Shown here in pieces: positions 43,716 through 57,072 of a stretch of DNA of 64,000 bases. The DNA lies in assembly GCF_000585995.1 (NCBI RefSeq), contig NZ_CP007410.1:2011430-2075429 (forward strand). Reading direction: 5' to 3'. Positions within the stretch are counted from its first letter, which is position 1. Each line of letters begins with the position of its first letter. The DNA is from Pseudomonas brassicacearum (GTDB lineage: Bacteria > Pseudomonadota > Gammaproteobacteria > Pseudomonadales > Pseudomonadaceae). Under the pieces are notes generated by a model. That model had not been told where the DNA came from, made no database searches, and saw only the letters and a program-made list of their open reading frames with translations. The position numbers and the translations under genes were made by a program.

Positions 43716-46433
43716 TCACGAGATAACGGCCACCGGTTGCGCAGTGGCAACCAGTAGGCGCTTGATTTCCGGTACACAGGAGCCGCATTGCGTGCCGCAA
43801 CCCAGTTCCTTTTTCAACCCCTGCAGATCCAGGCCACGTTCAATGCCCGCACAGACCGCACGCTGGCTGACGTTCATGCAGTTGCACAGCGTTTTGCTGC
43901 CTTTGAGCGAAGTGCCGACATTGCCCGGCGGCGCGCTCAAAGGCGCCAGCAGCCAGCGGCGCAATTGCTCATCGGCACGACCTTCCTGCCACAGATTCTG
44001 CAACCAGTGTCGGGCCAGGGTTTCGCCGGCCAGGCGAATGGCGGTGATGCGACCGTTTTCGATGCGCACCCGTTTACCAATGGAGCGCCGTGGATCGTCA
44101 TAGGCCAGAACCGGCCCATCGATCAGCCCCAATTGCGCGTCAATCGCCTGGAGCAGTTGCGGTTCGGGGGCGATGGCGCTGGCAGCGCGAATCAGCAATG
44201 CGGGACGTTCACGACCGGTCAGACTCAGGCTGACGTAGGAAAACGCCTCACACAGCGGTCGTAGCGTCTCCAGATGCTGTTGAACATCGCCTTCGATCAA
44301 GGCGAAAAGCTGCCAGGGCAGGTTTACCGGATCCAGGCGCACGCCACTGTGTTTGAGTTCCGGTTGCTTCGATAGCGGGTCGAAGGCCGGCTGGGTCAGG
44401 GTATTGACCCCACCCTTGAGGAACCGGTCGCCCCAGTGCATGGGCAGGAACGCTTGGCCGGGGCGCACGCTTTCGTCGCTTTCCACCGCCACGATCACGG
44501 CACCGCGACGGCTTTTGAGGCTGACCAGGTCGCCGGCTTGCAGGCGATGGCGCTGCATTTCGTCGGGATGCAGGCTGAGCACGGCTTCGTTCACATGGCC
44601 GAACAATTGCGCGGCGGTGCCGGTACGGCTCATGCCGTGCCACTGATCGCGCAGCCGACCGGTGTTGAGGGTCAGCGGGTAGCGGGCGTCACGCAGTTCC
44701 TTGGCGGCGCGATACGGGTCGGCCACGAACCGGGCGCGGCCGCTGTCGGTGGGAAAAATCCCGTCCACATACAGGCGCGCCGTCCCAACGGTCGCACCTT
44801 CCGGGAAGGGCCATTGTTGCGGGCCGAGTTGATCGATCAGTTCATGGCTGATGCCGGACAAGTCCAGGTCGCGACCCCGGGTCAGCTGTTTGTATTCATC
44901 GAACAGTTGGGCTGGGGTTTCAAAGGCGAACAGGCTGGGCTGGCCGGGCCGCAGGCGTTTCTCCAAGCGTTGTGCGAAATCTACCGTGATTGCCCAGTCC
45001 GCCCGCGCTTCACCCGGTGCGCCGATCGCCCGGCGGACGTGGGAAATGCGCCGTTCGGAGTTGGTTACCGAACCTTCTTTCTCACCCCAGCTGGCCGCCG
45101 GCAGCAGCAGGTCGGCAAACGCGGCGGTTTCGGTGGTCCGGAAAGCCTCCTGCAACACCACGAATGGGCAGGCTTGCAGCGCTTCACGTACCGCCGCCTG
45201 GTCTGGCATCGATTGGGCCGGGTTGGTGCAGGCGATCCACAAGGCCTTGATCTTGCCGCTGCGAACCTGCTCGAACAATTCGATGGCGCTCAAGCCGGTG
45301 GTGGCGGGCAATTGCTCGACACCCCAGTAACGGGCGACTTCGGCGCGATGCTCCGGGTTGGCTGCTTCGCGATGGCCTGGCAGCAGGTTTGACAGGCTGC
45401 CGGTTTCCCGTCCGCCCATGGCATTGGGCTGGCCGGTCAGTGAGAAAGGTCCCGCACCCGGCCGGCCGATTTGCCCGGTGGCCAGATGCAAATTGATCAA
45501 TGCGCTGTTCTTGGCGCTGCCAGCGGTGGACTGATTCAAGCCCATGCACCACAGCGACAGGAAACTCGGCGACGTGCCGACCCATTCGGCGCACTGGTGC
45601 AGTTGCTCGACGCTGATACCGCACAGTTGGGCGACCATGCTCGGTGTGTAGTCGCGGACCAGGTTTTTCAGGTCTGCCAGGCCTTCGGTGTGGGCCTTGA
45701 TGAAGTCGCGGTCGACCCAGTCTTCCCACAGCAGCAGGTGCAAAATCCCATGGAACAAGGCGACATCGGTGCCGGGCAGGATCGCCAGGTGCAGGTCCGC
45801 CAGGTCGCAGGTGTCGGTGCGCCGAGGGTCGATGACGATGATCTTCATCTGCGGCCGACGGGATTTGGCTTCCTCGAGGCGGCGAAACAGGATGGGGTGG
45901 GCGTAGGCCATGTTACTGCCGACGATCATCACGCAGTCGCTCAGCTCCAGGTCTTCATAGCTGCAGGGCGGGGCATCGGCACCGAGGCTGCGCTTGTAGC
46001 CCACCACGGCGGAGGACATGCACAGCCGGGAATTGCTGTCGATGTTGTTGGTGCCCACCAACGCCCGGGCGAGTTTGTTGAAGGCGTAGTAATCCTCGGT
46101 CAGCAGCTGCCCGGAGATGTAGAACGCCACGCTGTCGGGGCCGTGTTCGGCAAGGGTATCGGCGAACACGCTGGCAGCGTGATCCAGGGCACTGTCCCAG
46201 TCGGTGCGGGCCCGGGCCAGGCCTTTGCCCAGGCGCAGCTCCGGGTACAGGGCCCGTGCGGCGAGGTCGCCGGTCAAGTGCAGGGTGGAGCCCTTGCTGC
46301 ACAGTTTGCCGAAGTTGGCCGGATGGGCGGGATCGCCACTGACGCCGAGGATGCGCTCGTCGTCATGCTCGATCAGCACGCCGCAACCGACCCCGCAATA
46401 ACAGCAGGTCGAGGCAGTGGTCTGGCGGTTCAT
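43716..46433 (-). CDS. nasC: Assimilatory nitrate reductase, catalytic subunit
   Basis: 905 residues. The N-terminal 4Fe-4S site is CCYCGVGCGV with a fourth cysteine in GKLCSKGS; this is followed by the molybdopterin oxidoreductase domains (IVIDPRRTDTCDLADLHL, GRPGAGPFSLTGQPNAMGGRE) and the molydopterin dinucleotide-binding domain. A C-terminal BFD-like 2Fe-2S domain (CNCMNVSQRAVC, CGTQCGSC) extends the protein, as in the Klebsiella NasA type, so electrons can enter through that site. It reduces nitrate to nitrite in the cytoplasm. Its start overlaps the nirD stop by one base. Names nasA and nasC are both used for this gene in the literature. Confidence 0.95.
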   Translation of the reverse strand: MNRQTTASTCCYCGVGCGVLIEHDDERILGVSGDPAHPANFGKLCSKGSTLHLTGDLAARALYPELRLGKGLARARTDWDSALDHAASVFADTLAEHGPDSVAFYISGQLLTEDYYAFNKLARALVGTNNIDSNSRLCMSSAVVGYKRSLGADAPPCSYEDLELSDCVMIVGSNMAYAHPILFRRLEEAKSRRPQMKIIVIDPRRTDTCDLADLHLAILPGTDVALFHGILHLLLWEDWVDRDFIKAHTEGLADLKNLVRDYTPSMVAQLCGISVEQLHQCAEWVGTSPSFLSLWCMGLNQSTAGSAKNSALINLHLATGQIGRPGAGPFSLTGQPNAMGGRETGSLSNLLPGHREAANPEHRAEVARYWGVEQLPATTGLSAIELFEQVRSGKIKALWIACTNPAQSMPDQAAVREALQACPFVVLQEAFRTTETAAFADLLLPAASWGEKEGSVTNSERRISHVRRAIGAPGEARADWAITVDFAQRLEKRLRPGQPSLFAFETPAQLFDEYKQLTRGRDLDLSGISHELIDQLGPQQWPFPEGATVGTARLYVDGIFPTDSGRARFVADPYRAAKELRDARYPLTLNTGRLRDQWHGMSRTGTAAQLFGHVNEAVLSLHPDEMQRHRLQAGDLVSLKSRRGAVIVAVESDESVRPGQAFLPMHWGDRFLKGGVNTLTQPAFDPLSKQPELKHSGVRLDPVNLPWQLFALIEGDVQQHLETLRPLCEAFSYVSLSLTGRERPALLIRAASAIAPEPQLLQAIDAQLGLIDGPVLAYDDPRRSIGKRVRIENGRITAIRLAGETLARHWLQNLWQEGRADEQLRRWLLAPLSAPPGNVGTSLKGSKTLCNCMNVSQRAVCAGIERGLDLQGLKKELGCGTQCGSCVPEIKRLLVATAQPVAVIS

Positions 46434-46750
46434 CAGCTTGCGTCCCGCAGGGCCAGCATCACCCGGCCGTTCTCGACTCGCGCCGAATGATGATGGGCAC
46501 AGCCCACGTCCGGGGCCTGGGCCTGGCCGCTTTCCAGGTCGATCTGCCAGTTATGCAGCGGGCAGGCCACGCGCTTGCCGTACACCAAGCCTTGTGACAG
46601 CGGTCCACCCTTGTGAGGGCAACGGTCATCCAGGGCGAACACCTCATCATCGCTGGTACGAAAAATCGCGATATCGCCTTTCGGGCCATTGATGATGCGC
46701 GACCCGAGGATATTGATCTCTTCCAGTGCGCAGATATCCAGCCAGTTCAT
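46433..46750 (-). CDS. nirD: Nitrite reductase (NADH) small subunit NirD
   Basis: 105 residues from ATG 46750, which overlaps the nirB stop by 4 bases (ATGA). A Rieske-like fold with CPHKGGPLSQG and ACPLHNW carries the Cys-His pairs (many NirD proteins lack some of these ligands; here both CPH and CPLH are kept, so a 2Fe-2S cluster could bind). It partners NirB in reducing nitrite to ammonium. Confidence 0.93.
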   Translation of the reverse strand: MNWLDICALEEINILGSRIINGPKGDIAIFRTSDDEVFALDDRCPHKGGPLSQGLVYGKRVACPLHNWQIDLESGQAQAPDVGCAHHHSARVENGRVMLALRDAS

Positions 46751-49200
46751 GCCAGCACCTCCAGAGTCTTCACGGGAATGACCTCGAACTCTTTTTTCAG
46801 CTGGGGTTGTTCCAGGCGTTGTTTCCACGGGTCCTGTTCCAGCGACAGGGAAAATTTCAGGCGTTCGTGAAGAGCTTTGCGCCGCTCCGGGTCTTCGAGC
46901 ACGGCCTTCTTGATGTGCTCCATGCCGACCCGCTGCATGTAGTGCACGGTGCGTTCGAGGTAGAAGGCTTCTTCGCGGTACAGCTGCAGGAAGGCGCCGT
47001 TGTATTCACGCACTTCTTCGGCGGTCTTGAGTTTGACGAAGAATTCGGCGACCTCGGTCTTGATCCCGCCGTTGCCACCGATGTACATCTCCCAGCCGGA
47101 GTCGACGCCGATGATGCCGACGTCCTTGATGCCGGCCTCCGAGCAGTTGCGCGGGCAACCGGAGACGGCCAGCTTGACCTTGTGGGGCGACCACATGTTG
47201 AACAGGTCGTGCTCCAGCTCGATGCCCAGTTGGGTCGAGTTTTGCGTGCCGAAGCGGCAGAACTCACTGCCCACGCAGGTTTTCACGGTGCGGATGGACT
47301 TGCCGTAGGCGTGGCCGGACGGCATGTCGAGGTCTTTCCAGACCCCCGGCAGGTCTTGCTTCTTGATGCCCAGCAGGTCGATACGCTGGCCGCCGGTGAC
47401 CTTGACCATGGGCACGTTGTATTTGTCGGCCACGTCGGCAATGCGCCGCAGTTCCGAAGGATTGGTCACGCCACCCCACATCCGCGGGACGACCGAGTAG
47501 GTGCCGTCTTTCTGGATGTTGGCGTGGGCACGTTCGTTGATCAGCCGCGACTGCGGGTCGTCCTGGGCTTCGCCGGGCCAGCTGGAGATCAGGTAGTAGT
47601 TCAGCGCCGGGCGGCAGGTGGCGCAGCCGTTCGGGGTGCGCCAGTTCAGGTAACTCATGGTCCCGGCTATGGTCAGCAGGTGCTGGTCGCGGATCGCCTG
47701 GCGGATCTGGCCGTGGTTGAGGTCGCTGCAACCGCAGATGGCTTTTTCGCTTTTCGGCTTGACGTCCGCCGCGCCGCCCACGGTATTGATCAGGATCTGT
47801 TCCACCAGGCCGGCGCAGGAACCGCAGGAGCTGGCGGCCTTGGTGTGTTTTTTCACGTCATCGACGCTGAACAGGCCATGTTCCTGGATCGCCTTGACGA
47901 TGGTGCCCTTGCACACGCCGTTGCAGCCGCAGACTTCGGCGCTGTCGGCCATGCTCATGGCTTTGTCCTGGCCTTGGTGACCGACGTCGCCCAAGGCGTT
48001 CTCGCCAAACATCAGGTGATCGCGGATCTCGCTGATGGCATGGTTTTCACGGATCTGGCGGAAATACCAGCCACCATCCGCCGTATCGCCGTACAGGCAG
48101 GCACCGACCAATACGTCGTCCTTGATCACCAGCTTTTTGTAGACGCCGCCGATCGGGTCGGAAAGGGTGATGGTTTCGGTGCCTTCGCCGCCCATGAAGT
48201 CCCCGGCGGAGAACAGGTCAATGCCGGTGACTTTGAGTTTGGTCGAGGTCACTGAGCCCTTGTAAGTGGCGAAACCCAGTTGCGCGAGGTGGTTGGCGCA
48301 GACCTTGGCCTGTTCGAACAACGGTGCGACCAGACCATAGGCGGTGCCGCGATGGCTGGCGCATTCACCGATGGCGTAGATGCGCGGGTCGTAGGTTTGC
48401 ATCGTGTCGTTGACCAGGATCCCGCGGTTGCAAGGAATGCCGGATTTTTCCGCCAGTTCGGTGTTGGGACGGATGCCGGCCGCCATCACCACCAGGTCGG
48501 CGGGGATGATGTCGCCATTCTTGAACTGGACCGAGCCGACCCGGCCGTTGCCGGCGTCGTGCAGGGCTTGGGTCTGTTCGCTGAGGCGGAATTTCAGGCC
48601 ACGGTTTTCCAGGGCGGTTTGCAGCAACTGGCCGCTGGTTTTGTCCAGTTGCCGCTCCAGCAGCCACTCGCCCAAGTGCACCACGGTCACGTCCATGCCC
48701 CGTAGCTTCAAGCCATTGGCGGCTTCCAGGCCCAGCAGGCCACCGCCGATCACCACGGCGTGTTTGTGGGTCTTGGCGGTGTTGATCATCGCCTGGGTGT
48801 CGGCGATGTCGCGGTAGCCGATCACGCCCTCCAGGGTGTTGCCGGGAATCGGCAGGATGAACGGGGTGGAGCCGGTGGCGATCAGCAGGCGGTCGTATTC
48901 GGCTTCGCTGCCGTCTTCGGCGATGACCCGGCGCTTGATCCGGTCGATCTCCACCACCTTGCGATTGAGCAGCAACTTGATGTTGTTGTCCAGGTACCAG
49001 CTCAGGTCGTTGAGCACGATCTCTTCGAACGTCTGCTCACCGGCCAGCACCGGCGAGAGCAGGATGCGGTTGTAGTTGGTGTGGGGCTCGGCACCGAACA
49101 CCGTGATGTCGTAAAGCTCATTGCTCAACTTGAGCAGTTCTTCGAGGGTTCGAACCCCGGCCATGCCGTTGCCGATCATTACCAGTTTGAGTTTTTTCAT
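46747..49200 (-). CDS. nirB: Nitrite reductase (NADH) large subunit NirB
   Basis: 817 residues from ATG 49200 (GGAGAA upstream); five codons of open frame before it are not needed. Order: FAD/NAD(P)H domains (VMIGNGMAGVRTLEEL, HAVVIGGGLLGLEAANGL), a BFD-like 2Fe-2S domain with CGCNGVCKGTI (about residue 422), a second cysteine-rich repeat near CGSC, ferredoxin-like sulfite/nitrite reductase half-domain, and the siroheme/4Fe-4S cysteines in CVGSEFCRFG and CPRNCSEAG (about 640-685). It carries out the six-electron reduction of nitrite to ammonium with NADH. First gene of its operon, behind a sigma-54 promoter and an ANTAR-type leader. Confidence 0.96.
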   Translation of the reverse strand: MKKLKLVMIGNGMAGVRTLEELLKLSNELYDITVFGAEPHTNYNRILLSPVLAGEQTFEEIVLNDLSWYLDNNIKLLLNRKVVEIDRIKRRVIAEDGSEAEYDRLLIATGSTPFILPIPGNTLEGVIGYRDIADTQAMINTAKTHKHAVVIGGGLLGLEAANGLKLRGMDVTVVHLGEWLLERQLDKTSGQLLQTALENRGLKFRLSEQTQALHDAGNGRVGSVQFKNGDIIPADLVVMAAGIRPNTELAEKSGIPCNRGILVNDTMQTYDPRIYAIGECASHRGTAYGLVAPLFEQAKVCANHLAQLGFATYKGSVTSTKLKVTGIDLFSAGDFMGGEGTETITLSDPIGGVYKKLVIKDDVLVGACLYGDTADGGWYFRQIRENHAISEIRDHLMFGENALGDVGHQGQDKAMSMADSAEVCGCNGVCKGTIVKAIQEHGLFSVDDVKKHTKAASSCGSCAGLVEQILINTVGGAADVKPKSEKAICGCSDLNHGQIRQAIRDQHLLTIAGTMSYLNWRTPNGCATCRPALNYYLISSWPGEAQDDPQSRLINERAHANIQKDGTYSVVPRMWGGVTNPSELRRIADVADKYNVPMVKVTGGQRIDLLGIKKQDLPGVWKDLDMPSGHAYGKSIRTVKTCVGSEFCRFGTQNSTQLGIELEHDLFNMWSPHKVKLAVSGCPRNCSEAGIKDVGIIGVDSGWEMYIGGNGGIKTEVAEFFVKLKTAEEVREYNGAFLQLYREEAFYLERTVHYMQRVGMEHIKKAVLEDPERRKALHERLKFSLSLEQDPWKQRLEQPQLKKEFEVIPVKTLEVLA

Positions 49201-49265: not shown

Positions 49266-49310
49266 AAACAAAAAAAGGCGTCCCGCTAGCAAGCTAGCGA
49301 GGACGCCTTT
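49266..49310 (-). terminator. Leader terminator of the nirB operon
   Basis: On the minus strand, a 10-bp outer stem (49274-49283 with 49301-49310), a one-base bulge and a further inner stem are followed by a T-rich tract (TTTTTTGTTTTT). It lies 66 bases before the nirB start and directly after the two hexaloop hairpins, so it should stop transcription unless antitermination occurs. Confidence 0.85.
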
Positions 49311-49317
49311 GTCCTGG

Positions 49318-49362
49318 TCCCGTTCTCTCGGGAAGCACCGCCTTCATCGTTGGAGGCGTTGC
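49318..49362 (-). promoter_or_regulatory. ANTAR (NasT) RNA target in the nirB leader: two A-N-N-G-N-N hexaloop hairpins
   Basis: On the minus strand, hairpin P1 (49362-49335) has loop AACGAT (49351-49346) closed by C-G. Hairpin P2 (49333-49318) has a 5-bp stem TCCCG/CGGGA and loop AGAGAA (49328-49323). Both loops have A at position 1 and G at position 4, the recognition rule for ANTAR proteins. One base separates the hairpins. NasT, an ANTAR protein, is encoded 3.7 kb away. Confidence 0.82.
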
Positions 49363-49385
49363 TTTATGTATGGTGAGAGAGGTTA

Positions 49386-49402
49386 TGCAGTGGTTGTGCC
49401 AA
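49386..49402 (-). promoter_or_regulatory. Predicted sigma-54 promoter of the nirB operon
   Basis: TTGGCAC-AACCA-CTGCA on the minus strand; GG and GC are 10 bases apart and only one core base differs from TTGGCAC-N5-TTGCA. The expected start near 49375 puts hairpin P1 about 12 bases into the transcript. Confidence 0.75.
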
Positions 49403-49466
49403 GTGGCTTGAAGGCGCGGATTTATTGGGGGCAAGCGTGGGGTGGGGAGGGTGGAGGGGGATTTAT

Positions 49467-49483
49467 TGCACCGAATCAAAGCG
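49467..49483. promoter_or_regulatory. Possible NtrC site upstream of the nirB promoter
   Basis: TGCACC-N5-AAAGCG: one half matches the NtrC palindrome TGCACC-N5-GGTGCA and the other is degenerate. It lies about 65 bp upstream of the sigma-54 -24 element, in the usual enhancer range. Confidence 0.35.
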
Positions 49484-49516
49484 TGTTGCCCGGTAATGGA
49501 GCGCTGTCGAGCTTTA

Positions 49517-49610
49517 TGTGGCGAGGGAGCTTGCTCCCGCTCGAGCGCGAAGCGGTCGCAAGTTCTTGGGTCTGCTTCGCAGCCCAGCGGGAGCAAGCTC
49601 CCTCGCCACA
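49517..49610. repeat. Long inverted repeat of the GTGGCGAGGGAGCTTGCTCC type
   Basis: The left arm begins at 49517 and its inverted copy ends at 49610; the arms match over more than 20 bases, with further pairing inside (GCTGGGCT-like and GAAGC segments). It differs in sequence from the GTGGGAGCGAGC palindromes and follows the stop of the kinase gene. Confidence 0.85.
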
Positions 49611-49615
49611 GGTCA

Positions 49616-51286
49616 TTACGAATGGAACACCAAAAACAGCAGCACAATGTTTACCACCAAAGACACCAGCGCCAAGGTCCGCCAGACCTTCAGCGGTTCA
49701 CGCTCCAGCAACGGCCGGGGCCTTACGCTCAAGCTACGGCGTTCGCCCTGTTCCAGCAGCAACAACCACTCCTCAGCCGTTTCAAAGCGTTGCTCCGGAT
49801 CTGCGGCGACGGCGCGTTCCAGGCTTTGCCCGAGCCATTCGGCCAGGTCCGGTCGATAGCGACTGGCGCTGACCGGCACGCCAAAGCGTGGGCGCTGGAA
49901 CGCTTCGATTTCGCCGTAGGGATAATGCCCGGTCAGCAGGAAGTACAAGGTCACGCCGACCGAGTACAGGTCCTGTTGCGCGGTCGGCGCCGTGCCGGCG
50001 AAGGCTTCCGGGGCGATGTAGCTGGGCGTGCCGGGCAACACGTTGGCCTGGTCCTCGGACAGGCCTGGGCAGTAAGCCAGACCGAAATCCAGCAGGCGCA
50101 ATTCCCCGTCATCCCCCAGGTGCAGGTTTTCCGGCTTGATGTCGCGGTGGTAGATCTGCCTTCGATGCAGCAGGCCCACCGCCCGCACCAGTCGTTGCGC
50201 CAGGTCCAGCCACTGGGCCAAAGGTAGCGGCCCGCCCTGGTTGAACAACTCGGCCAGGGTCATGCCCGAATACTCGCGCATCACATAGTACAAATGCTGG
50301 CGCTGGGGAGCACCATGGACCTCGGGAAACTGCCGCCCGGCGACCCGCTTGAGAAACCATTCTTCCGACAGCAAAGCCTGTCCGGCACGGCTGTCGTCCC
50401 GCAGCTGCCCTGGCAAGGTTTTCAGCAGCCAGGGCTGGCCCTGACCGTCGTGTACCCGGTAGAGCAACGATTGCTGGCTCTGGCCGAGCAGGCCTTCGAT
50501 CTGCCAGCCTTCGAACACCTGGCCGGGTTTCAGTGCCGGGGGAAGGGGCCATTGTTGCAACTGGATCAGCGCATCGCCGATGCTCGCTTCACCCACCGCA
50601 TCGACCCGCACCAACAGGGCGCTGGCGTTGTCCTGGCTGCCGGCCAGGTGCGCGGCATTGACCAGGGTCTGGGCGGCGAGGTCCAGGTCCGGTTGGTCGC
50701 GCAGGATGCCGGCGATGGCCGTGTCGCCCAGGACCGCCCAGACCCCGTCGCTGAGCAGTACGAAGGTTTCGTCGGTGCGCAGTTCGCCGTCAAGGAAATC
50801 CAGGATCAGGTGTTGATCCAGCCCCAGGGCGCGCTTGAGCACATGTTGCATGCCTTGCTGTTCCCAGACGTGGTCTTCGCTGACCCGTTGCAGGTGCTCG
50901 GCGTGCCAGCGATAGACCCGGCAATCACCGACATGCGCGAGGGTAAAGCGTCGGCCCCGCAGGACCAGGGCGCTGACGGTGGTGAGCAGCGGTTGCCCAC
51001 CACCGTTGGCCTGCAGCCAGCGATTCTGTGCCAGCAACAGCCGGTCCAGTGCCTGGGCCACGCCCCAGGTTTGCGGCGTGGAGTAGTAGTCCAGGGCCAG
51101 GGCCTGCAAGGTCGAACGGGCGGCCAGTCCGCCATCGGCGCATTGGCTCACGCCGTCGGCGATGGCGAACAGGTATCCCTTGCTGGCGGCCAGGGCCGGC
51201 GCCGGAGTGACCAGGCGCAGGGCGTCCTGGTTTTCTTCCCGCGGGCCGATGGCACTGGCTTCGGCGAAACTCAGTTGCAGACTCAT
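49616..51286 (-). CDS. PP2C-type phosphatase fused to a Ser/Thr protein kinase, membrane anchored
   Basis: 556 residues. N-terminal PP2C domain (about 1-235): metal aspartates in REENQDA, FAIADGVSQCADGG, AHVGDCRVY, LLSDGVW and GSQDNASALL. Kinase domain (about 255-520): catalytic lysine in WLLKTLPG, HRDIKPENLHL, LLDFGLAYC and GTPSYIAPEAF, so both activities look intact, though the glycine-rich loop is weak. A C-terminal membrane helix (LALVSLVVNIVLLFLVF) ends the protein. The gene follows the nitrate transporter by 9 bases and precedes the nirB leader; the same position holds PA1782 in P. aeruginosa. Its targets are unknown, but placement suggests control of nitrate uptake or reduction. Confidence 0.92.
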   Translation of the reverse strand: MSLQLSFAEASAIGPREENQDALRLVTPAPALAASKGYLFAIADGVSQCADGGLAARSTLQALALDYYSTPQTWGVAQALDRLLLAQNRWLQANGGGQPLLTTVSALVLRGRRFTLAHVGDCRVYRWHAEHLQRVSEDHVWEQQGMQHVLKRALGLDQHLILDFLDGELRTDETFVLLSDGVWAVLGDTAIAGILRDQPDLDLAAQTLVNAAHLAGSQDNASALLVRVDAVGEASIGDALIQLQQWPLPPALKPGQVFEGWQIEGLLGQSQQSLLYRVHDGQGQPWLLKTLPGQLRDDSRAGQALLSEEWFLKRVAGRQFPEVHGAPQRQHLYYVMREYSGMTLAELFNQGGPLPLAQWLDLAQRLVRAVGLLHRRQIYHRDIKPENLHLGDDGELRLLDFGLAYCPGLSEDQANVLPGTPSYIAPEAFAGTAPTAQQDLYSVGVTLYFLLTGHYPYGEIEAFQRPRFGVPVSASRYRPDLAEWLGQSLERAVAADPEQRFETAEEWLLLLEQGERRSLSVRPRPLLEREPLKVWRTLALVSLVVNIVLLFLVFHS

Positions 51287-51295
51287 GGAGGCTAT

Positions 51296-52507
51296 TTATA
51301 CCCGAGCCGCGGTGACGGCGGCCGAACCCCAAGTGGTCCTCCAGCGACGCTTGACGCCGTGCAGGCCGAACCAGGCCAGGACACCGAGGCTGGCGAACAA
51401 CCACAGCGCCAGTTGATAGCTGCCGGTGCTCTGCTTGATCGCACCCATGCCCGCCGCGAGGGCAAAACCCCCGATACCGCCGGCCATGCCGATCAGCCCA
51501 GTCATCACGCCGATTTCGCGGCGGAAGCGTTGTGGCACCAGTTGGAACACCGCGCCGTTGCCCGCACCCAAGCCGAGCATGGTGCAAACGAACAGGGCCA
51601 GGGCCGCATAGGAGCTTGGCAGGTTGAAACCCACCGCCGCGATGCAGACGGCCGCCACGGTGTACATGCCCAGTAATGTGCGGATGCCGCCGAAACGATC
51701 CGCCAGGGCGCCGCCCAGGGGGCGCATCAGGCTGCCACCGAAGACGCAGGCGGCGGTGTAGTAGCCGGCGGTGACCGGGCTCAGGCCGTATTGGTCGTTG
51801 AAGTAGCCGGGCAGGGCGCTGGCCAGGCCGATGAAGCCGCCGAAGGTCACGCTGTAGAAGAACATGAACCACCAGCTGTCACGGTCGCCCAGGGCCTTGA
51901 GGTAGTCGGCCATGGATTTGGCTTTCGGCCGCTCGGGAGCGTTCTTGGCCAGCCAGGCGAAGAGCACCAAGGTCAGCACCAGCGGGATCAGTGCAAAGCC
52001 GAAGACGTTGGTCCAACCGAATGCCACCGCCATCACCGGCGCGATCAATGCAGCGAGCACGGTGCCCGAGTTACCGGCACCGGCAATGCCCATGGCCTTG
52101 CCCTGGTGTTGTGGCGGATACCACTGGGACGCCAGCGGCAGGGCCACGGCGAACGACGCGCCGGCCACGCCCAGGAACAGGCCCAGCAACAGGGCTTGCT
52201 CGTAGCTGTGGATGCCGAGTTTCCAGGCGCAGAACAGCGCACCGATCACAATCACCTGGCCCACCATGCCGGCGGTCTTTGGCGAAATCCGATCGGCCAG
52301 CAGGCCCATGAACAGACGCAGTACGGCACCGGCCAGGATCGGCGTCGCTACCATCAGGCCGCGTTGCTGGGTGGTCAGGTGCAGGTCGGCAGAGATCTGT
52401 ACCGCCAGTGGACCGAGCAGGTACCAGACCATGAAGCTCAGGTCGAAGTAGAGGAAGGCCGCGAACAGTGTCGGGGTGTGGCCGGATTTCCAGAAGCTTG
52501 AATTCAT
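51296..52507 (-). CDS. nasA: Nitrate/nitrite transporter (MFS, NarK/NasA family)
   Basis: 403 residues from ATG 52507 (GAGGTG upstream). About 12 membrane helices. The nitrate-signature motifs are present: the first in GVAGASFAVALPLASQWYP and GMAGAGNSGTVLAAL, the second in MLGLGAGNGAVFQLVP and GLIGMAGGIGGFALAAG. It brings nitrate in for the reductase encoded nearby. The gene sits behind a sigma-54 promoter and an ANTAR-type leader, and shares a transcript with the phosphatase-kinase gene. Confidence 0.94.
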   Translation of the reverse strand: MNSSFWKSGHTPTLFAAFLYFDLSFMVWYLLGPLAVQISADLHLTTQQRGLMVATPILAGAVLRLFMGLLADRISPKTAGMVGQVIVIGALFCAWKLGIHSYEQALLLGLFLGVAGASFAVALPLASQWYPPQHQGKAMGIAGAGNSGTVLAALIAPVMAVAFGWTNVFGFALIPLVLTLVLFAWLAKNAPERPKAKSMADYLKALGDRDSWWFMFFYSVTFGGFIGLASALPGYFNDQYGLSPVTAGYYTAACVFGGSLMRPLGGALADRFGGIRTLLGMYTVAAVCIAAVGFNLPSSYAALALFVCTMLGLGAGNGAVFQLVPQRFRREIGVMTGLIGMAGGIGGFALAAGMGAIKQSTGSYQLALWLFASLGVLAWFGLHGVKRRWRTTWGSAAVTAARV

Positions 52508-52601: not shown

Positions 52602-52652
52602 AAAAAAACGCCGCAACCCGGATTGCCAGAGAGGCAAGGAGGGTATGCGACG
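52602..52652 (-). terminator. Leader terminator of the nitrate transporter operon
   Basis: On the minus strand, an outer stem of about 11 bp (CGTCGCA-ACCC with GGGTTGCGGCG, one bulge and one G-T pair) encloses an inner hairpin TTGCC-TCTCT-GGCAA. Seven T residues follow. Its 5' arm shares five bases (52648-52652) with hairpin P2, so the two structures exclude each other. Confidence 0.8.
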
Positions 52653-52688
52653 TCTTTGTCGTAGGTGGGGCAACCGCCGTTGGTTACC
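52648..52688 (-). promoter_or_regulatory. ANTAR (NasT) RNA target in the nitrate transporter leader
   Basis: On the minus strand, P1 (52688-52669) is a 7-bp stem with loop AACGGC (GGTAACC/GGTTGCC). P2 (52661-52648) is CGAC-AAAGAC-GTCG. Both hexaloops carry A1 and G4. Seven bases separate them. P2 overlaps the 5' arm of the terminator that follows. Confidence 0.85.
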
Positions 52689-52702
52689 TGTGGGATTGCT
52701 TA

Positions 52703-52719
52703 AGCGAGATCTGTGCCAA
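52703..52719 (-). promoter_or_regulatory. Predicted sigma-54 promoter of the nitrate transporter operon
   Basis: TTGGCAC-AGATC-TCGCT on the minus strand, with the GG-N10-GC spacing and one core mismatch to TTGGCAC-N5-TTGCT. The expected start near 52692 puts P1 at the very 5' end of the transcript. Confidence 0.78.
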
Positions 52720-52747
52720 CAGTAGGGATCGGAGGTGTCCTCTGAAC

Positions 52748-52886
52748 CTGTGGGAGCGAGCTTGCTCGCGATGACGGTGGGTCAGTCGATATTGATGTCG
52801 GAAGTTAGATTGCTATCGCGAGCAAGCTCGCTCCCACAATGGATCCGCAGTGGCCGCAGAGCCTGTGGGAGCTTGCTCGCGATGGC
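52748..52886. repeat. REP cluster, inverted pair plus a truncated third copy
   Basis: Direct copy 52748-52777, inverted copy 52811-52839, and at 52863-52886 a direct copy that lacks the internal GAGC (GGGAGCTTGCTCGCGAT). The cluster sits between the nasT stop and the sigma-54 promoter of the transporter. Confidence 0.87.
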
Positions 52887-52910
52887 GCCAGGCCAGGCGC
52901 TACAAGGCTT

Positions 52911-53486
52911 TCAGCCGAGCAACTCGTTCATCGCGATGATCTGCTCCGCCACCTGGATCAGCTTCTGCTGGCGGCTCATGGCCTGGCGGCGCATCAGGGT
53001 GTAGGCCTGTTCTTCATTGCATTCTTTCATCTTCATCAGCATGCCCTTGGCCAGTTCGATGCGCTTGCGCTCGGCCAGTTGCTGGTCGCGGGCCAGGAGC
53101 TGGGCGCGCAGGGCCTGGTCGCTTTCGAAGCGGGCCATGGCCACGTCGAGGATCGGTTGCAGGCGTGCGGCGTGGATGCCTTCGACGATGTAGGCGCTGA
53201 CGCCTGACTTGATCGCCTGGCGCATGACATCCGGGTCGTGCTCGTCGGTAAACATGACGATCGGTCGTGGCTGGTCGCGACTGACCAGCACCACTTGTTC
53301 CATGACATCGCGTCCGGGTGACTCGGTATCGATCAGGATCACGTCCGGACGCACCGTTTCGACGCGCGCCGGCAGGTCGATGGTCAATCCGGATTCATCG
53401 ATGACTTCGAATCCGGCTTCAATCAGGGCGGCTTTGAGGCGGCCGACTTTTTTCGCGGTGTCGTTGATCAGCAGGATACGCAGCAT
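52911..53486 (-). CDS. nasT: Nitrate-responsive antiterminator NasT (ANTAR-domain response regulator)
   Basis: 191 residues from ATG 53486 (AGGAG 8 nt upstream). The N-terminal receiver-like domain (about 1-120) keeps IDTESPG near the usual phospho-site. The C-terminal ANTAR domain (about 125-190) shows LAERKRIELAKGMLM, EEQAYTLMRRQAM and AEQIIAMNELL. NasT binds paired hexaloop hairpins in nitrate leader RNAs and prevents termination; NasS holds it inactive without nitrate. Two such leaders lie in this window. The gap to nasS is 14 bases. Confidence 0.95.
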   Translation of the reverse strand: MLRILLINDTAKKVGRLKAALIEAGFEVIDESGLTIDLPARVETVRPDVILIDTESPGRDVMEQVVLVSRDQPRPIVMFTDEHDPDVMRQAIKSGVSAYIVEGIHAARLQPILDVAMARFESDQALRAQLLARDQQLAERKRIELAKGMLMKMKECNEEQAYTLMRRQAMSRQQKLIQVAEQIIAMNELLG

Positions 53487-53500
53487 GGTCGAGGCTCCTG

Positions 53501-54712
53501 TCAGCGGCTGGCGAAAAGGGGAGCCGCATCGCTCAAGGCGTGCAGTTTGAAGCTGCGGGCATACTTGGCCGGGTCCGAACCGTCCCAGATGGTGCCATCG
53601 ATCAACTGGCTGCTGCGCATGTCCTGGCGCGGGGACACGATGCCCAGTGCGCCAGCGGCTTCGCGGTACAGCTTGAGCTGCTGGACGTCCTGGGCCACGG
53701 CCAGGTAATCCGGGTCTTCGCGCAACAGCCCCCAGCGGCGGAACTGGGTCATGAACCACATGCCGTCGGACAGGTACGGCAGGTTGACCTCGCCATTGCC
53801 GTGGAACCGCATGGCGTGGGGATCCTGCCAACTGTTGCCCAAGCCATCGGCGTAGATCCCCAGCAACCGGGGTTCGATGCAGTCCAAGGGGGCGTCGAGG
53901 TATTCAGGCGCACTCAACAGTTGCGCGGTGCTGCGACGGTTTTCGCTGCTTTGTTCAATGAAGCGGCTGGCTTCGAGGATCGCCATCACCAGGGCCCGGG
54001 CGGTATTGGGGTGCTGCTCGACGAATGCGCGGGTGCAGCCCAGGACTTTTTCCGGGTGATCAGGCCAGATGGTCTGGGTGGTCGCCAGGGTGAAGCCCAG
54101 GTTCTGTTTCACCGCGCTGGCGCACCAGGGCTCGCCGACGCAAAAACCGTCGATACGCCCGGCTTGCAGGTGCGCGATCATTTGTGGCGGTGGCACCACC
54201 ACGCTGTCGACATCCGACAACGGATGGATGCCTTGGGCGGCGAGCCAGTAATAGAGCCACATGGCATGGGTGCCGGTGGGGAAGGTCTGGGCGAAGGTCA
54301 GTTTCGGGCGAGTTTGGTGCACGTGCTGTTCCAGTGCCTCAGGACTGGTCACGCCCAAGGCCTGCAGGCCATGGGACAGGTTGATGCTCTGGCCGTTCTG
54401 GTTCAGGCCCATCAGCACGGCCATGTCGGTCGGCGCGACACCGCCGATGCCCAGGTGCACGGCGTAGATCAGGCCGTACAGGCTGTGGGCGGCATCGATT
54501 TCACCGCTGACCAGCTTGTCCCGCAGGTTGGCCCAGGACGTCTGGCGCTTGAGGTTCAGGGTCAGGCCGTAGGGTTGGGCGAAGCCCTGGGTGGCGGCTA
54601 CCACCAGCGGGGCGCAGTCACTCAAGGCCATGAAGCCCAGGTTGATTGCGCTCTTTTCCGGGGCATCGCTGCCGTTGACCCAAGCCAGGGGGTTGGCTGG
54701 AACTTCATTCAT
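53501..54712 (-). CDS. nasS: Nitrate sensor NasS (NrtA/CmpA-type binding protein, cytoplasmic)
   Basis: 403 residues from ATG 54712 (AAGGTGATG upstream). It is related to the periplasmic nitrate-binding protein NrtA but has no signal peptide, as expected for the cytoplasmic sensor. Conserved segments are LGFMALSDCAPLVVAATQGF, VSGEIDAAHSLYGLIYA and GFCVGEPWCASAVK. In other proteobacteria NasS binds nitrate or nitrite and then releases NasT. It heads the nasS-nasT operon. Confidence 0.94.
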   Translation of the reverse strand: MNEVPANPLAWVNGSDAPEKSAINLGFMALSDCAPLVVAATQGFAQPYGLTLNLKRQTSWANLRDKLVSGEIDAAHSLYGLIYAVHLGIGGVAPTDMAVLMGLNQNGQSINLSHGLQALGVTSPEALEQHVHQTRPKLTFAQTFPTGTHAMWLYYWLAAQGIHPLSDVDSVVVPPPQMIAHLQAGRIDGFCVGEPWCASAVKQNLGFTLATTQTIWPDHPEKVLGCTRAFVEQHPNTARALVMAILEASRFIEQSSENRRSTAQLLSAPEYLDAPLDCIEPRLLGIYADGLGNSWQDPHAMRFHGNGEVNLPYLSDGMWFMTQFRRWGLLREDPDYLAVAQDVQQLKLYREAAGALGIVSPRQDMRSSQLIDGTIWDGSDPAKYARSFKLHALSDAAPLFASR

Positions 54713-54966
54713 CGCGCATCACCTTCCACGTAAAAAAAGCGCCGTACCCAGCGCTTGCCGGGGCAGGCCGGATGACGACGCCGTTGTCCTTTAAAACAGT
54801 GTGGCACTCATTCCGCCATTGGCATGGGCGCCGATGAACGAAAAGGGTGCAAGGCATATGCCAGTGCGTGCCTCATCACCTTTCCCAAAGCCAGGGTTCT
54901 CGCCGGTCGCCCTCCTGCCCGGTATAATCCCGTCACTTTTTATCGCCCAGAGAGTCAAACCCGCCC

Positions 54967-56541: not shown

Positions 56542-57072
56542 AGGGTGTTGCCCTCACTTGTTGACTGTTGCTTAGCGTCGACCTCTATCGAGGCCGGGGC
56601 AGAATCATTCTGCCGTTGGTGGCTCGTTGCCGGCGTGACGAGCCGAGGTGTTGACGCCGTTGCGACGTCAACCTGTGTTGAGTTCTAACCAAAGCGTCAC
56701 ATGGATGGAATGATCGTTTTGTCATAAGCACGTAACGATAAAGATGTTAGGGCGATAAGTAACTTCATGTTCGTTGACCGCTTTTGAGCAAGACCCCTGT
56801 ATGATCGGCCCTGCGCCAAAGGGGACCGGCTTTCCTTGAATGAGAATGTCCTCCCGTTGCACTCGGGTACTATTCGACGAAAGGGGCGAGTTTTCACAAT
56901 TTGTTGCACAGAATTTTTTATCTGCCCTCGCATCTAAGCTCTTTTAACCTGAGCGGCGAGGGCGGCACGGCACACATTCGTGCCACACGGGTGCTCTTGA
57001 GAAAAGCACCTGATTGAACCCGGCCCGGCAATGCGTTGCCCGGTCCACTTAGCCAAAGGCTCTGGAAATCCC
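56542..57072. other. Divergent region between rmf and rlmKL
   Basis: 531 bases without a convincing gene; a 78-residue minus-strand frame (56697-56933) has no ribosome binding site and atypical composition. The right part (56924-57045) is rich in hairpins and is listed separately. A possible sigma-70 promoter for it is TTCACA at 56893-56898, 17 bp, TTTTAT at 56916-56921. Confidence 0.45.
56924..57045 (+). other. Chain of hairpins upstream of rlmKL, possible structured leader or small RNA
   Basis: Four stems follow one another: GCCCTCGC (56924-56931) with GCGAGGGC (56956-56963), with an inner GCTC/GAGC; GGCAC/GTGCC (56969-56984); GGTGCT...AGCACC (56990-57010); and CCCGGCAA/TTGCCCGG just before the ribosome binding region of rlmKL. 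None ends in a U-tract. The predicted promoter start falls at the first stem. Confidence 0.4.

Follow-up and report, generated by a model that had tools for sequence, protein, structure and literature searches.

The window, a 64-kb stretch of DNA taken from a single-contig genome of 6.65 Mb, carries on its minus strand the genes nasS, nasT, nasA, a PP2C-kinase fusion, nirB, a Rieske-like open reading frame and an assimilatory-type nitrate reductase, in that order; all genes and leader elements described below lie on this strand. The first gene, nasS (53501..54712; PF13379), encodes an NMT1-like nitrate/nitrite sensor, a function assigned by homology, and is followed by nasT (52911..53486), which encodes a receiver-like and ANTAR antiterminator. 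Directly downstream of nasT is nasA (51296..52507), which encodes a NarK-family nitrate transporter (TIGR00886, 311.9 bits against a cut-off of 311.7). Among the best 80 of 576 confirmed matches, the nearest named relatives of NasA were those of Pseudomonas zanjanensis SWRI12 and P. frederiksbergensis SI8, each with 100% identity. A PP2C phosphatase-Ser/Thr kinase fusion gene (49616-51286) is located between nasA and the leader of nirB (46747-49200), and beyond nirB lie a small open reading frame (46433-46828) that looks Rieske-like by eye and occupies the nirD position, and the nitrate reductase (43716-46433). We also observed an Rfam rmf RNA (RF01755, 110 bits; 56560-56692, minus strand) and REP-like inverted repeats (TGTGGGAGCGAGCTTGCTCGCGAT), which occupy the nasT-nasA gap (52726-52902) and recur upstream of the nirB leader (49513-49613). 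Similar repeats were found at the nasT-nasA spot in many of the relatives inspected. Matches to microRNA families at 49513-49613 and 52743-52843 were rejected, as they scored far under the gathering scores and coincide with the REP-like repeats.

A two-hairpin leader upstream of nasA

Upstream of nasA we read directly from the sequence a sigma-54 -24/-12 element, TTGGCAC-N5-TCGCT (52703..52719), with the correct GG-N10-GC spacing. It is followed by hairpin P1 (52669..52688), a 7-bp stem (GGTAACC/GGTTGCC) with the hexaloop AACGGC, by hairpin P2 (52648..52661), a 4-bp stem (CGAC/GTCG) with the hexaloop AAAGAC and the putative antiterminator, and by an intrinsic terminator (52602..52654), the 5' arm of which starts at position 4 of the P2 loop and the U-tract of which is seven T (52608-52602). 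Both hexaloops have A as their first and G as their fourth base (A1/G4) and are closed by C-G, as in the two-hairpin ANTAR motif. These four elements had been proposed in an earlier note made from the sequence, and each was confirmed by sequence and folding, with covariation in addition for P1. The Rfam narK RNA (RF03032) matched here over its whole 72-position model (52647..52717; 83 bits against a gathering score of 43.2). That model opens with GGCaCAgcucUUGCU, the -24/-12 sigma-54 element, and its structure draws P1 alone, with the P2 segment unpaired and the terminator absent.

As the earlier note had suggested, we folded the leader with and without its terminator. Without the terminator, the leader folded exactly to P1 and P2 (-14.5 kcal/mol; 3 of 200 shuffles were as good). 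With it, P1 was kept and P2 gave way to the terminator (energy -44.2 kcal/mol; z -5.28; none of 200 shuffles as good), and in a longer leader reaching to the ATG the predicted optimum lost P1 as well; these energies leave co-transcriptional kinetics out of account. The competition between P2 and terminator proposed in the earlier note thus held up by folding, in which the two are mutually exclusive, and by comparison, as the 3' arm of P2 lies entirely inside the terminator in 76 of the 80 related nasA loci scorable by script. Forcing P2 to form at the related loci cost 9.0-13.6 kcal/mol. The overlap is larger than the five bases first suggested, because the terminator 5' arm takes the whole four-base 3' arm of P2 in addition to positions 4-6 of its loop.

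We also searched the window with a descriptor consisting of two C-ANNGNN-G hexaloop hairpins and a terminator arm built on the second. With both strands of the 64-kb window searched, it matched the nasA leader only, and 60 shuffles of the first-order Markov type yielded no match. Taken without the terminator, a pair of such hexaloops is ordinary (1 in the window versus 0.43 per shuffle). This stringent descriptor misses the nirB and nasS leaders of the same window, which are described below.

Conservation of the nasA leader

We assembled 121 leaders: that of the window, those of 80 nasA loci from named Pseudomonas, which were the best 80 among 576 confirmed matches, and those at 40 narK-RNA sites in further genomes of the family, hand-picked from the listed matches for genus spread. 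In 119 of them, both P1 and P2 were recovered by script with A1/G4. The other two, L022 and L038, have P1 and keep the P2 5' arm CGAC, with the P2 loop GAAGAC (G1 for A1). Such loops constitute a natural test of the A1 rule. In the 119 leaders, P1 pairs were mostly retained, with changes. P2 pairs 1, 3 and 4 were invariant, most of these letters being fixed by the search pattern itself, and pair 2 was A-T in 117 leaders and A-C in 2. This A-C, the sole change in P2, breaks P2 and preserves the terminator. The P2 5' arm CGAC, which is part of the search pattern and is unused by the counted terminator pairs, was retained in all 119. Eight pairs join P2 loop positions 4-6, the P2 3' arm and one further base to the terminator 3' arm; all eight were present in 116 leaders and seven in the remaining 3. 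P2 loop position 5 and its terminator partner were A-T in 91 leaders and G-C in 28, and were never mixed.

Covariation was scored in an alignment of 63 of the 117 distinct leaders (the window, 25 of 77 close and 37 of 39 distant ones), against shuffles that ignore relatedness, so that related sequences can beat them without structure. Six of the seven P1 pairs showed two-sided changes, and the joint covariation score of P1 and P2 was reached by none of 500 shuffles. The P2 helix was without covariation, three of its four pairs never varying. The terminator helix contained one two-sided pair (A-U in 38 leaders, G-C in 25). This helix outdid all shuffles in three of five measures (pairing, two-sided cells and covariation score) but not in the other two, the number of two-sided pairs and the pair types; sliding the helix by one column left 24 two-sided cells and 33% pairing.

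The case for P2 as an antiterminator rests on its conserved 5' arm and loop and on the precedent of ANTAR systems. The absence of compensatory change in P2 pairs would also suit an arrangement in which P1 alone is the essential NasT site, P2 is merely part of the terminator and NasT acts otherwise than by holding P2. Mutation of HI in Paracoccus severely cut nasA transcription and HII mattered little on nitrate, according to the available text of PMC5424462, but HII may correspond to the terminator rather than to P2. NasR is reported to require both hairpins for full affinity (PMC7496416, available text), and the 5' arm and A1/G4 loop of P2 are conserved beyond the need of the counted terminator pairs. 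We consider it unlikely that P1 suffices, and prefer the reading in which NasT would hold P2.

The putative sigma-54 promoter upstream of nasA

When a stricter pattern was applied, the sigma-54 box of the nasA leader was still recognised in 114 of the 119 (all but L151, L152, L154, L155 and L162), and in the 63 aligned leaders its GG is invariant and its GC at least 90% conserved. We infer from this consensus that the nasA RNA starts here. The consensus for NtrC is GCAC-N7-GTGC, and our enhancer scan used this pattern only. Within 300 nt of the narK promoter, an NtrC-like box occurred in 1 of 73 loci, versus 5 of 73 in a coding control; within 1000 nt, such boxes were found in 7 of 73 loci and were scattered, with none recognisable as an enhancer site.

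Published mutants point in both directions. An rpoN mutant of P. putida retained nasA induction (12.43-fold versus 14.64-fold in the wild type), and its nasT induction was 4.00 (not significant) versus 7.25 (PMC7801951, available parts). In P. stutzeri, nasA, nasS and nasT all decreased in an ntrC mutant (PMC8443478, available parts). For Paracoccus, the accessible part of PMC5424462 describes an NtrC site at nasT and calls that for nasA as yet unidentified. The box could accordingly be a promoter that is not in use, with nasA transcribed from another and the attenuator alone mattering. The rpoN result, the absence of an NtrC box near the narK promoter, the similar situation of Paracoccus nasA and the crowding of the upstream space by REP-like repeats or nasT coding sequence, in the window and the loci inspected, would fit such an arrangement; the conservation of the box and the P. 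stutzeri ntrC mutant speak against it, and we regard it as improbable. The sigma-54 promoter of the earlier note stands as to consensus and spacing, and is weakened by the missing NtrC box and the rpoN mutant.

Co-occurrence with an ANTAR regulator

The product of nasT carries the sole ANTAR match found in the genome (Pfam ANTAR, 59.4 bits), which bears out the neighbouring ANTAR protein, NasT, of the earlier note. The PDB entries closest to it in sequence comprise a putative antiterminator as well as a response regulator of the same architecture; AmiR and NasR, the nitrate regulatory protein, rank further down. Of 298 Pseudomonadaceae genomes, 236 had narK RNA (at E <= 0.001) and 250 had an ANTAR match. 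Both occurred in 235 genomes, the RNA alone in 1, which is 71% complete, an ANTAR match alone in 15 and neither in 47; these genomes are related rather than independent, and an ANTAR match need not be NasT. In the class, 16 of 369 genomes had a narK RNA match, 3 of them over the cut-off. Rfam types narK as a cis-regulatory RNA under a name and type that give neither ligand nor protein, which would allow a small-molecule riboswitch in place of a protein-bound leader, but two tiny hairpins with the ANTAR loop signature, the near-perfect co-occurrence with an ANTAR match and a promoter that falls inside the Rfam model make this highly implausible.

The P2 core GACAAAGRCGTC occurs five times in the genome, and a control pattern gave three matches. 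Two of the five belong to the narK and P11 leaders, and the remaining three were rejected as NasT targets, since neither a terminator nor a run of at least five T lies within 80 nt on either side. This search is blind to the nasS leader, whose core differs, and further variant leaders are possible.

The nirB leader

The leader upstream of nirB matched Rfam P11 (RF00625) at 129.3 bits (49277..49413), and the narK model matched the same place weakly (20.8 bits, under the cut-off). The leader contains a sigma-54 element, TTGGCACAACCACTGC (49387..49402), a P1 with the loop AACGAT and one C.A mismatch in its stem (49340..49357), a P2 that reads AGGAC-AAAGGC-GTCCT (49300..49315), and a terminator (49270..49307) whose 5' arm overlaps the P2 loop and 3' arm. 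The P11 model includes TTGGCAC-N5-CTGC, and even pairs promoter letters. Upstream of the promoter are two weak NtrC-like boxes with two mismatches each (49468..49502); matches of this quality are common throughout the stretch scanned, and the support for these boxes is their position in relatives.

We surveyed P11 in 131 sources, comprising the window, the 80 loci and 50 further loci (L172 is the same genome). The core GGAC-AAAGG[CT]-GTCC followed by a T-run was present in 116. The remaining 15 were four short loci and eleven without such a core downstream of nasA. Pairing of the P2 loop and 3' arm with the terminator was complete at 7 of 7 positions in 113 of these leaders and reached 6 of 7 in the other 3, which is why we conclude that, as far as the sequences indicate, P11 shares the P2/terminator design of the nasA leader, with a P2 that is missing from the Rfam structure. 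By script, 112 of 116 leaders had a P1 loop of the type AACG or AATG with a C-G closing pair, and in L190 one was seen by eye. The other three (L211, L215 and L216) keep the P2/terminator core and have no recognisable A1/G4 P1. In each of these three genomes, the one ANTAR match lies in an open frame of 432-452 aa, which is perhaps a NasR-type protein. The sigma-54 box was found in 112 of 116 leaders. Of the 95 with 300 nt in reach, 48 had an NtrC-like box with at most one mismatch, mostly 61-100 nt before the promoter.

P11 also has a middle hairpin, which in the window is CCCG-AGAGAA-CGGG and thus again has an A1/G4 hexaloop, closed by G-C and not by C-G. It was present with A1/G4 in 95 of 116 leaders; in 20 no middle hairpin was matched, and one lacked G4. 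Among 31 such loops from the 50 further loci, positions 1, 4 and 5 (A1, G4 and A5) were invariant and positions 2, 3 and 6 varied. By its sequence, this hairpin may serve as a spacer or offer NasT a third contact.

A similar leader upstream of nasS-nasT

The earlier note missed that the nasA leader is one of three such leaders in the cluster. The third, unannotated, extends from 54863 to 54732 (minus strand). It begins with a sigma-54 element, TGGCATATGCCTTGC (54849..54863), and contains a P1-like hairpin with the loop AATGGC and two 1x1 stem mismatches (54803..54832), a P2-like hairpin of 3 bp, GAC-AACGGC-GTC (54777..54788), and a terminator, GCGUCGU/ACGGCGC and U7 (54732..54781), whose 5' arm begins within the P2 loop and whose seven T end just before the nasS ATG. 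An Rfam scan of the genome reported one narK RNA only and missed this leader. Its fold keeps P1 and the terminator and is ordinary compared with shuffles (z -1.06; 32 of 200 shuffles were as good), so folding energy alone gives no support. The support for this candidate leader is its conservation.

With nasS in reach in 78 of the 80 loci, and with the window, 79 close loci could be compared. The promoter, P2 and terminator were found together in 75, with 8 of 8 terminator pairs in 70 and 7 of 8 in 5. P2 is 3 bp in all 75, and the sigma-54 element is identical in all 75 and in the 4 loci without P2. The P1 loop was at its expected place in 66 of 75, its stem pair 3 being standard in 21 of these 66 and the other pairs in 40 to 66. 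The four loci without P2 by pattern (L003, L005, L007 and L065) retain the promoter; in L007 a degenerate P2-like core is left. The attenuator seems lost in L003, L005 and L065; the NasA of L003 is identical to that of the window.

We extended this comparison to 20 further genomes chosen from the listed ANTAR matches, 12 of the window's genus and 8 from five other genera. A sigma-54-like box was found upstream of nasS in all 20, and P1, P2 and terminator in 11. Here P1 varies with its pairing largely kept, and in some of these relatives its stem is better paired than in the window, as in UUUCC/GGAAA (L225), CGCUCC/GGAGCG (L239) and AAGUGCC/GGCAUUU (L241). The other nine have the sigma-54-like box only, seven of them with the -24 element 49-63 nt from the start. 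The exact promoter 16-mer occurred in 2 of 119 genomes of the family, the window's included.

If NasT acts at nasS as at nasA, the nasS-nasT operon is positively autoregulated. From the sequence evidence we think it reasonably likely that NasT antiterminates its own operon through a sigma-54 promoter and a two-hexaloop attenuator, giving nitrate-gated positive autoregulation, and that this attenuator is a removable module, given the box without attenuator in nine of 20 further genomes and an attenuator that is gone or degenerate in three or four of 79 loci. Since AmiR is encoded behind its own leader in the same transcript, autoregulation by an ANTAR protein would have a precedent. Searching the literature accessible to us, with most subscription journals outside it, returned no claim of nasST autoregulation, and within that literature the nasS-nasT leader looks undescribed.

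Discussion

Judged from its sequence, the nasA leader is real, conserved and of a known kind, and the model first read from it is right in outline. Taking sequence, folding and analogy together, we hold it very probable that it is a NasT-dependent transcription-attenuation/antitermination leader of the published ANTAR two-hairpin kind, with the same logic at nirB and most probably at nasS-nasT. RNA polymerase would start at the sigma-54 promoter indicated by the consensus. Without NasT bound, the nascent RNA is predicted, from folding and covariation, to fold first into P1 and next into the terminator, at the expense of the P2 loop and 3' arm. Nitrate or nitrite would cause NasS to release NasT, as is known in Paracoccus, and by ANTAR precedent the ANTAR domains of the released NasT would bind the A1/G4 hexaloops of P1 and P2. 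P2 held in this way would keep the terminator from forming. The cluster appears to reuse this logic twice, at nirB (P11/NalA) and, most probably, at nasS-nasT. The mechanistic model of the earlier note thus keeps its outline at the sequence level, with a weaker sigma-54 part; its mechanism is not new, since leaders of this ANTAR two-hairpin kind are already published. Counting against the NasT model are the lack of P2 covariation, the two terminator-helix measures that stay within the shuffles, the G1 loops of L022 and L038, the lack of a narK NtrC box and the nasA induction retained by the P. putida rpoN mutant. The Bradyrhizobium narK-bjgb-flp genes, with predicted NasT hairpins, also go against the model, as their expression was higher, not lower, without NasT (PMC6759348, available text).

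This reading links the narK RNA, whose regulator is unnamed in the Rfam listing, to a regulator; our search found no paper on narK RNA or RF03032. Both Rfam models, narK and P11, seem to start with promoter DNA and to omit the antiterminator hairpin; should the sigma-54 boxes indeed be promoters, each family would open with untranscribed DNA. The reading further predicts that the operon of the regulator is subject to nitrate-gated feedback, for which natural nasS leaders with and without the attenuator provide a ready comparison of switches with and without feedback.

The ANTAR two-hairpin mechanism has been described for EutV/eut, NasR/nasF and AmiR/amiE, with matches already noted in Pseudomonas and ahead of genes for nitrate transporters and nitrite reductase (Ramesh 2012, PMC3369931, available parts). 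Like these systems, the nasA leader has two short A1/G4 hexaloop hairpins, the second overlapping an intrinsic terminator, and an ANTAR regulator (PMC3369931, available parts). It differs in its regulator, NasT, and in the sigma-54-type promoter directly upstream; its terminator takes part of the P2 loop as well as the 3' arm. In Pseudomonas, a review in the part available to us describes NalA with sigma-54, NtrC and NasT antitermination, and c-di-GMP as weakening the binding of NasT to NalA (PMC12830290). The nasA leader resembles this NalA/P11 leader of nirBD in its proposed NasT antitermination, its sigma-54 promoter and its place in the same gene cluster (PMC12830290, same part). The narK and P11 leaders share the P2 core ACAAAGRCGTC overlapping the terminator. 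The narK leader lacks two features of P11, namely the additional hairpin that often separates P1 from P2 and the NtrC-like boxes present in part of the relatives. A delta-nasT mutant of P. putida is reported to be unable to use nitrate (PMC7261876, available text). In Paracoccus denitrificans, NasS and NasT dissociate and NasT binds the nasA leader (PMC3795266, available text), and HI of that leader is needed for nitrate expression and the nasT promoter has an NtrC site (PMC5424462, available text). We found no mention of a two-hexaloop leader on nasT in the available parts of those two papers; the Paracoccus denitrificans system, as described there, also differs in its gene order, nasTS.
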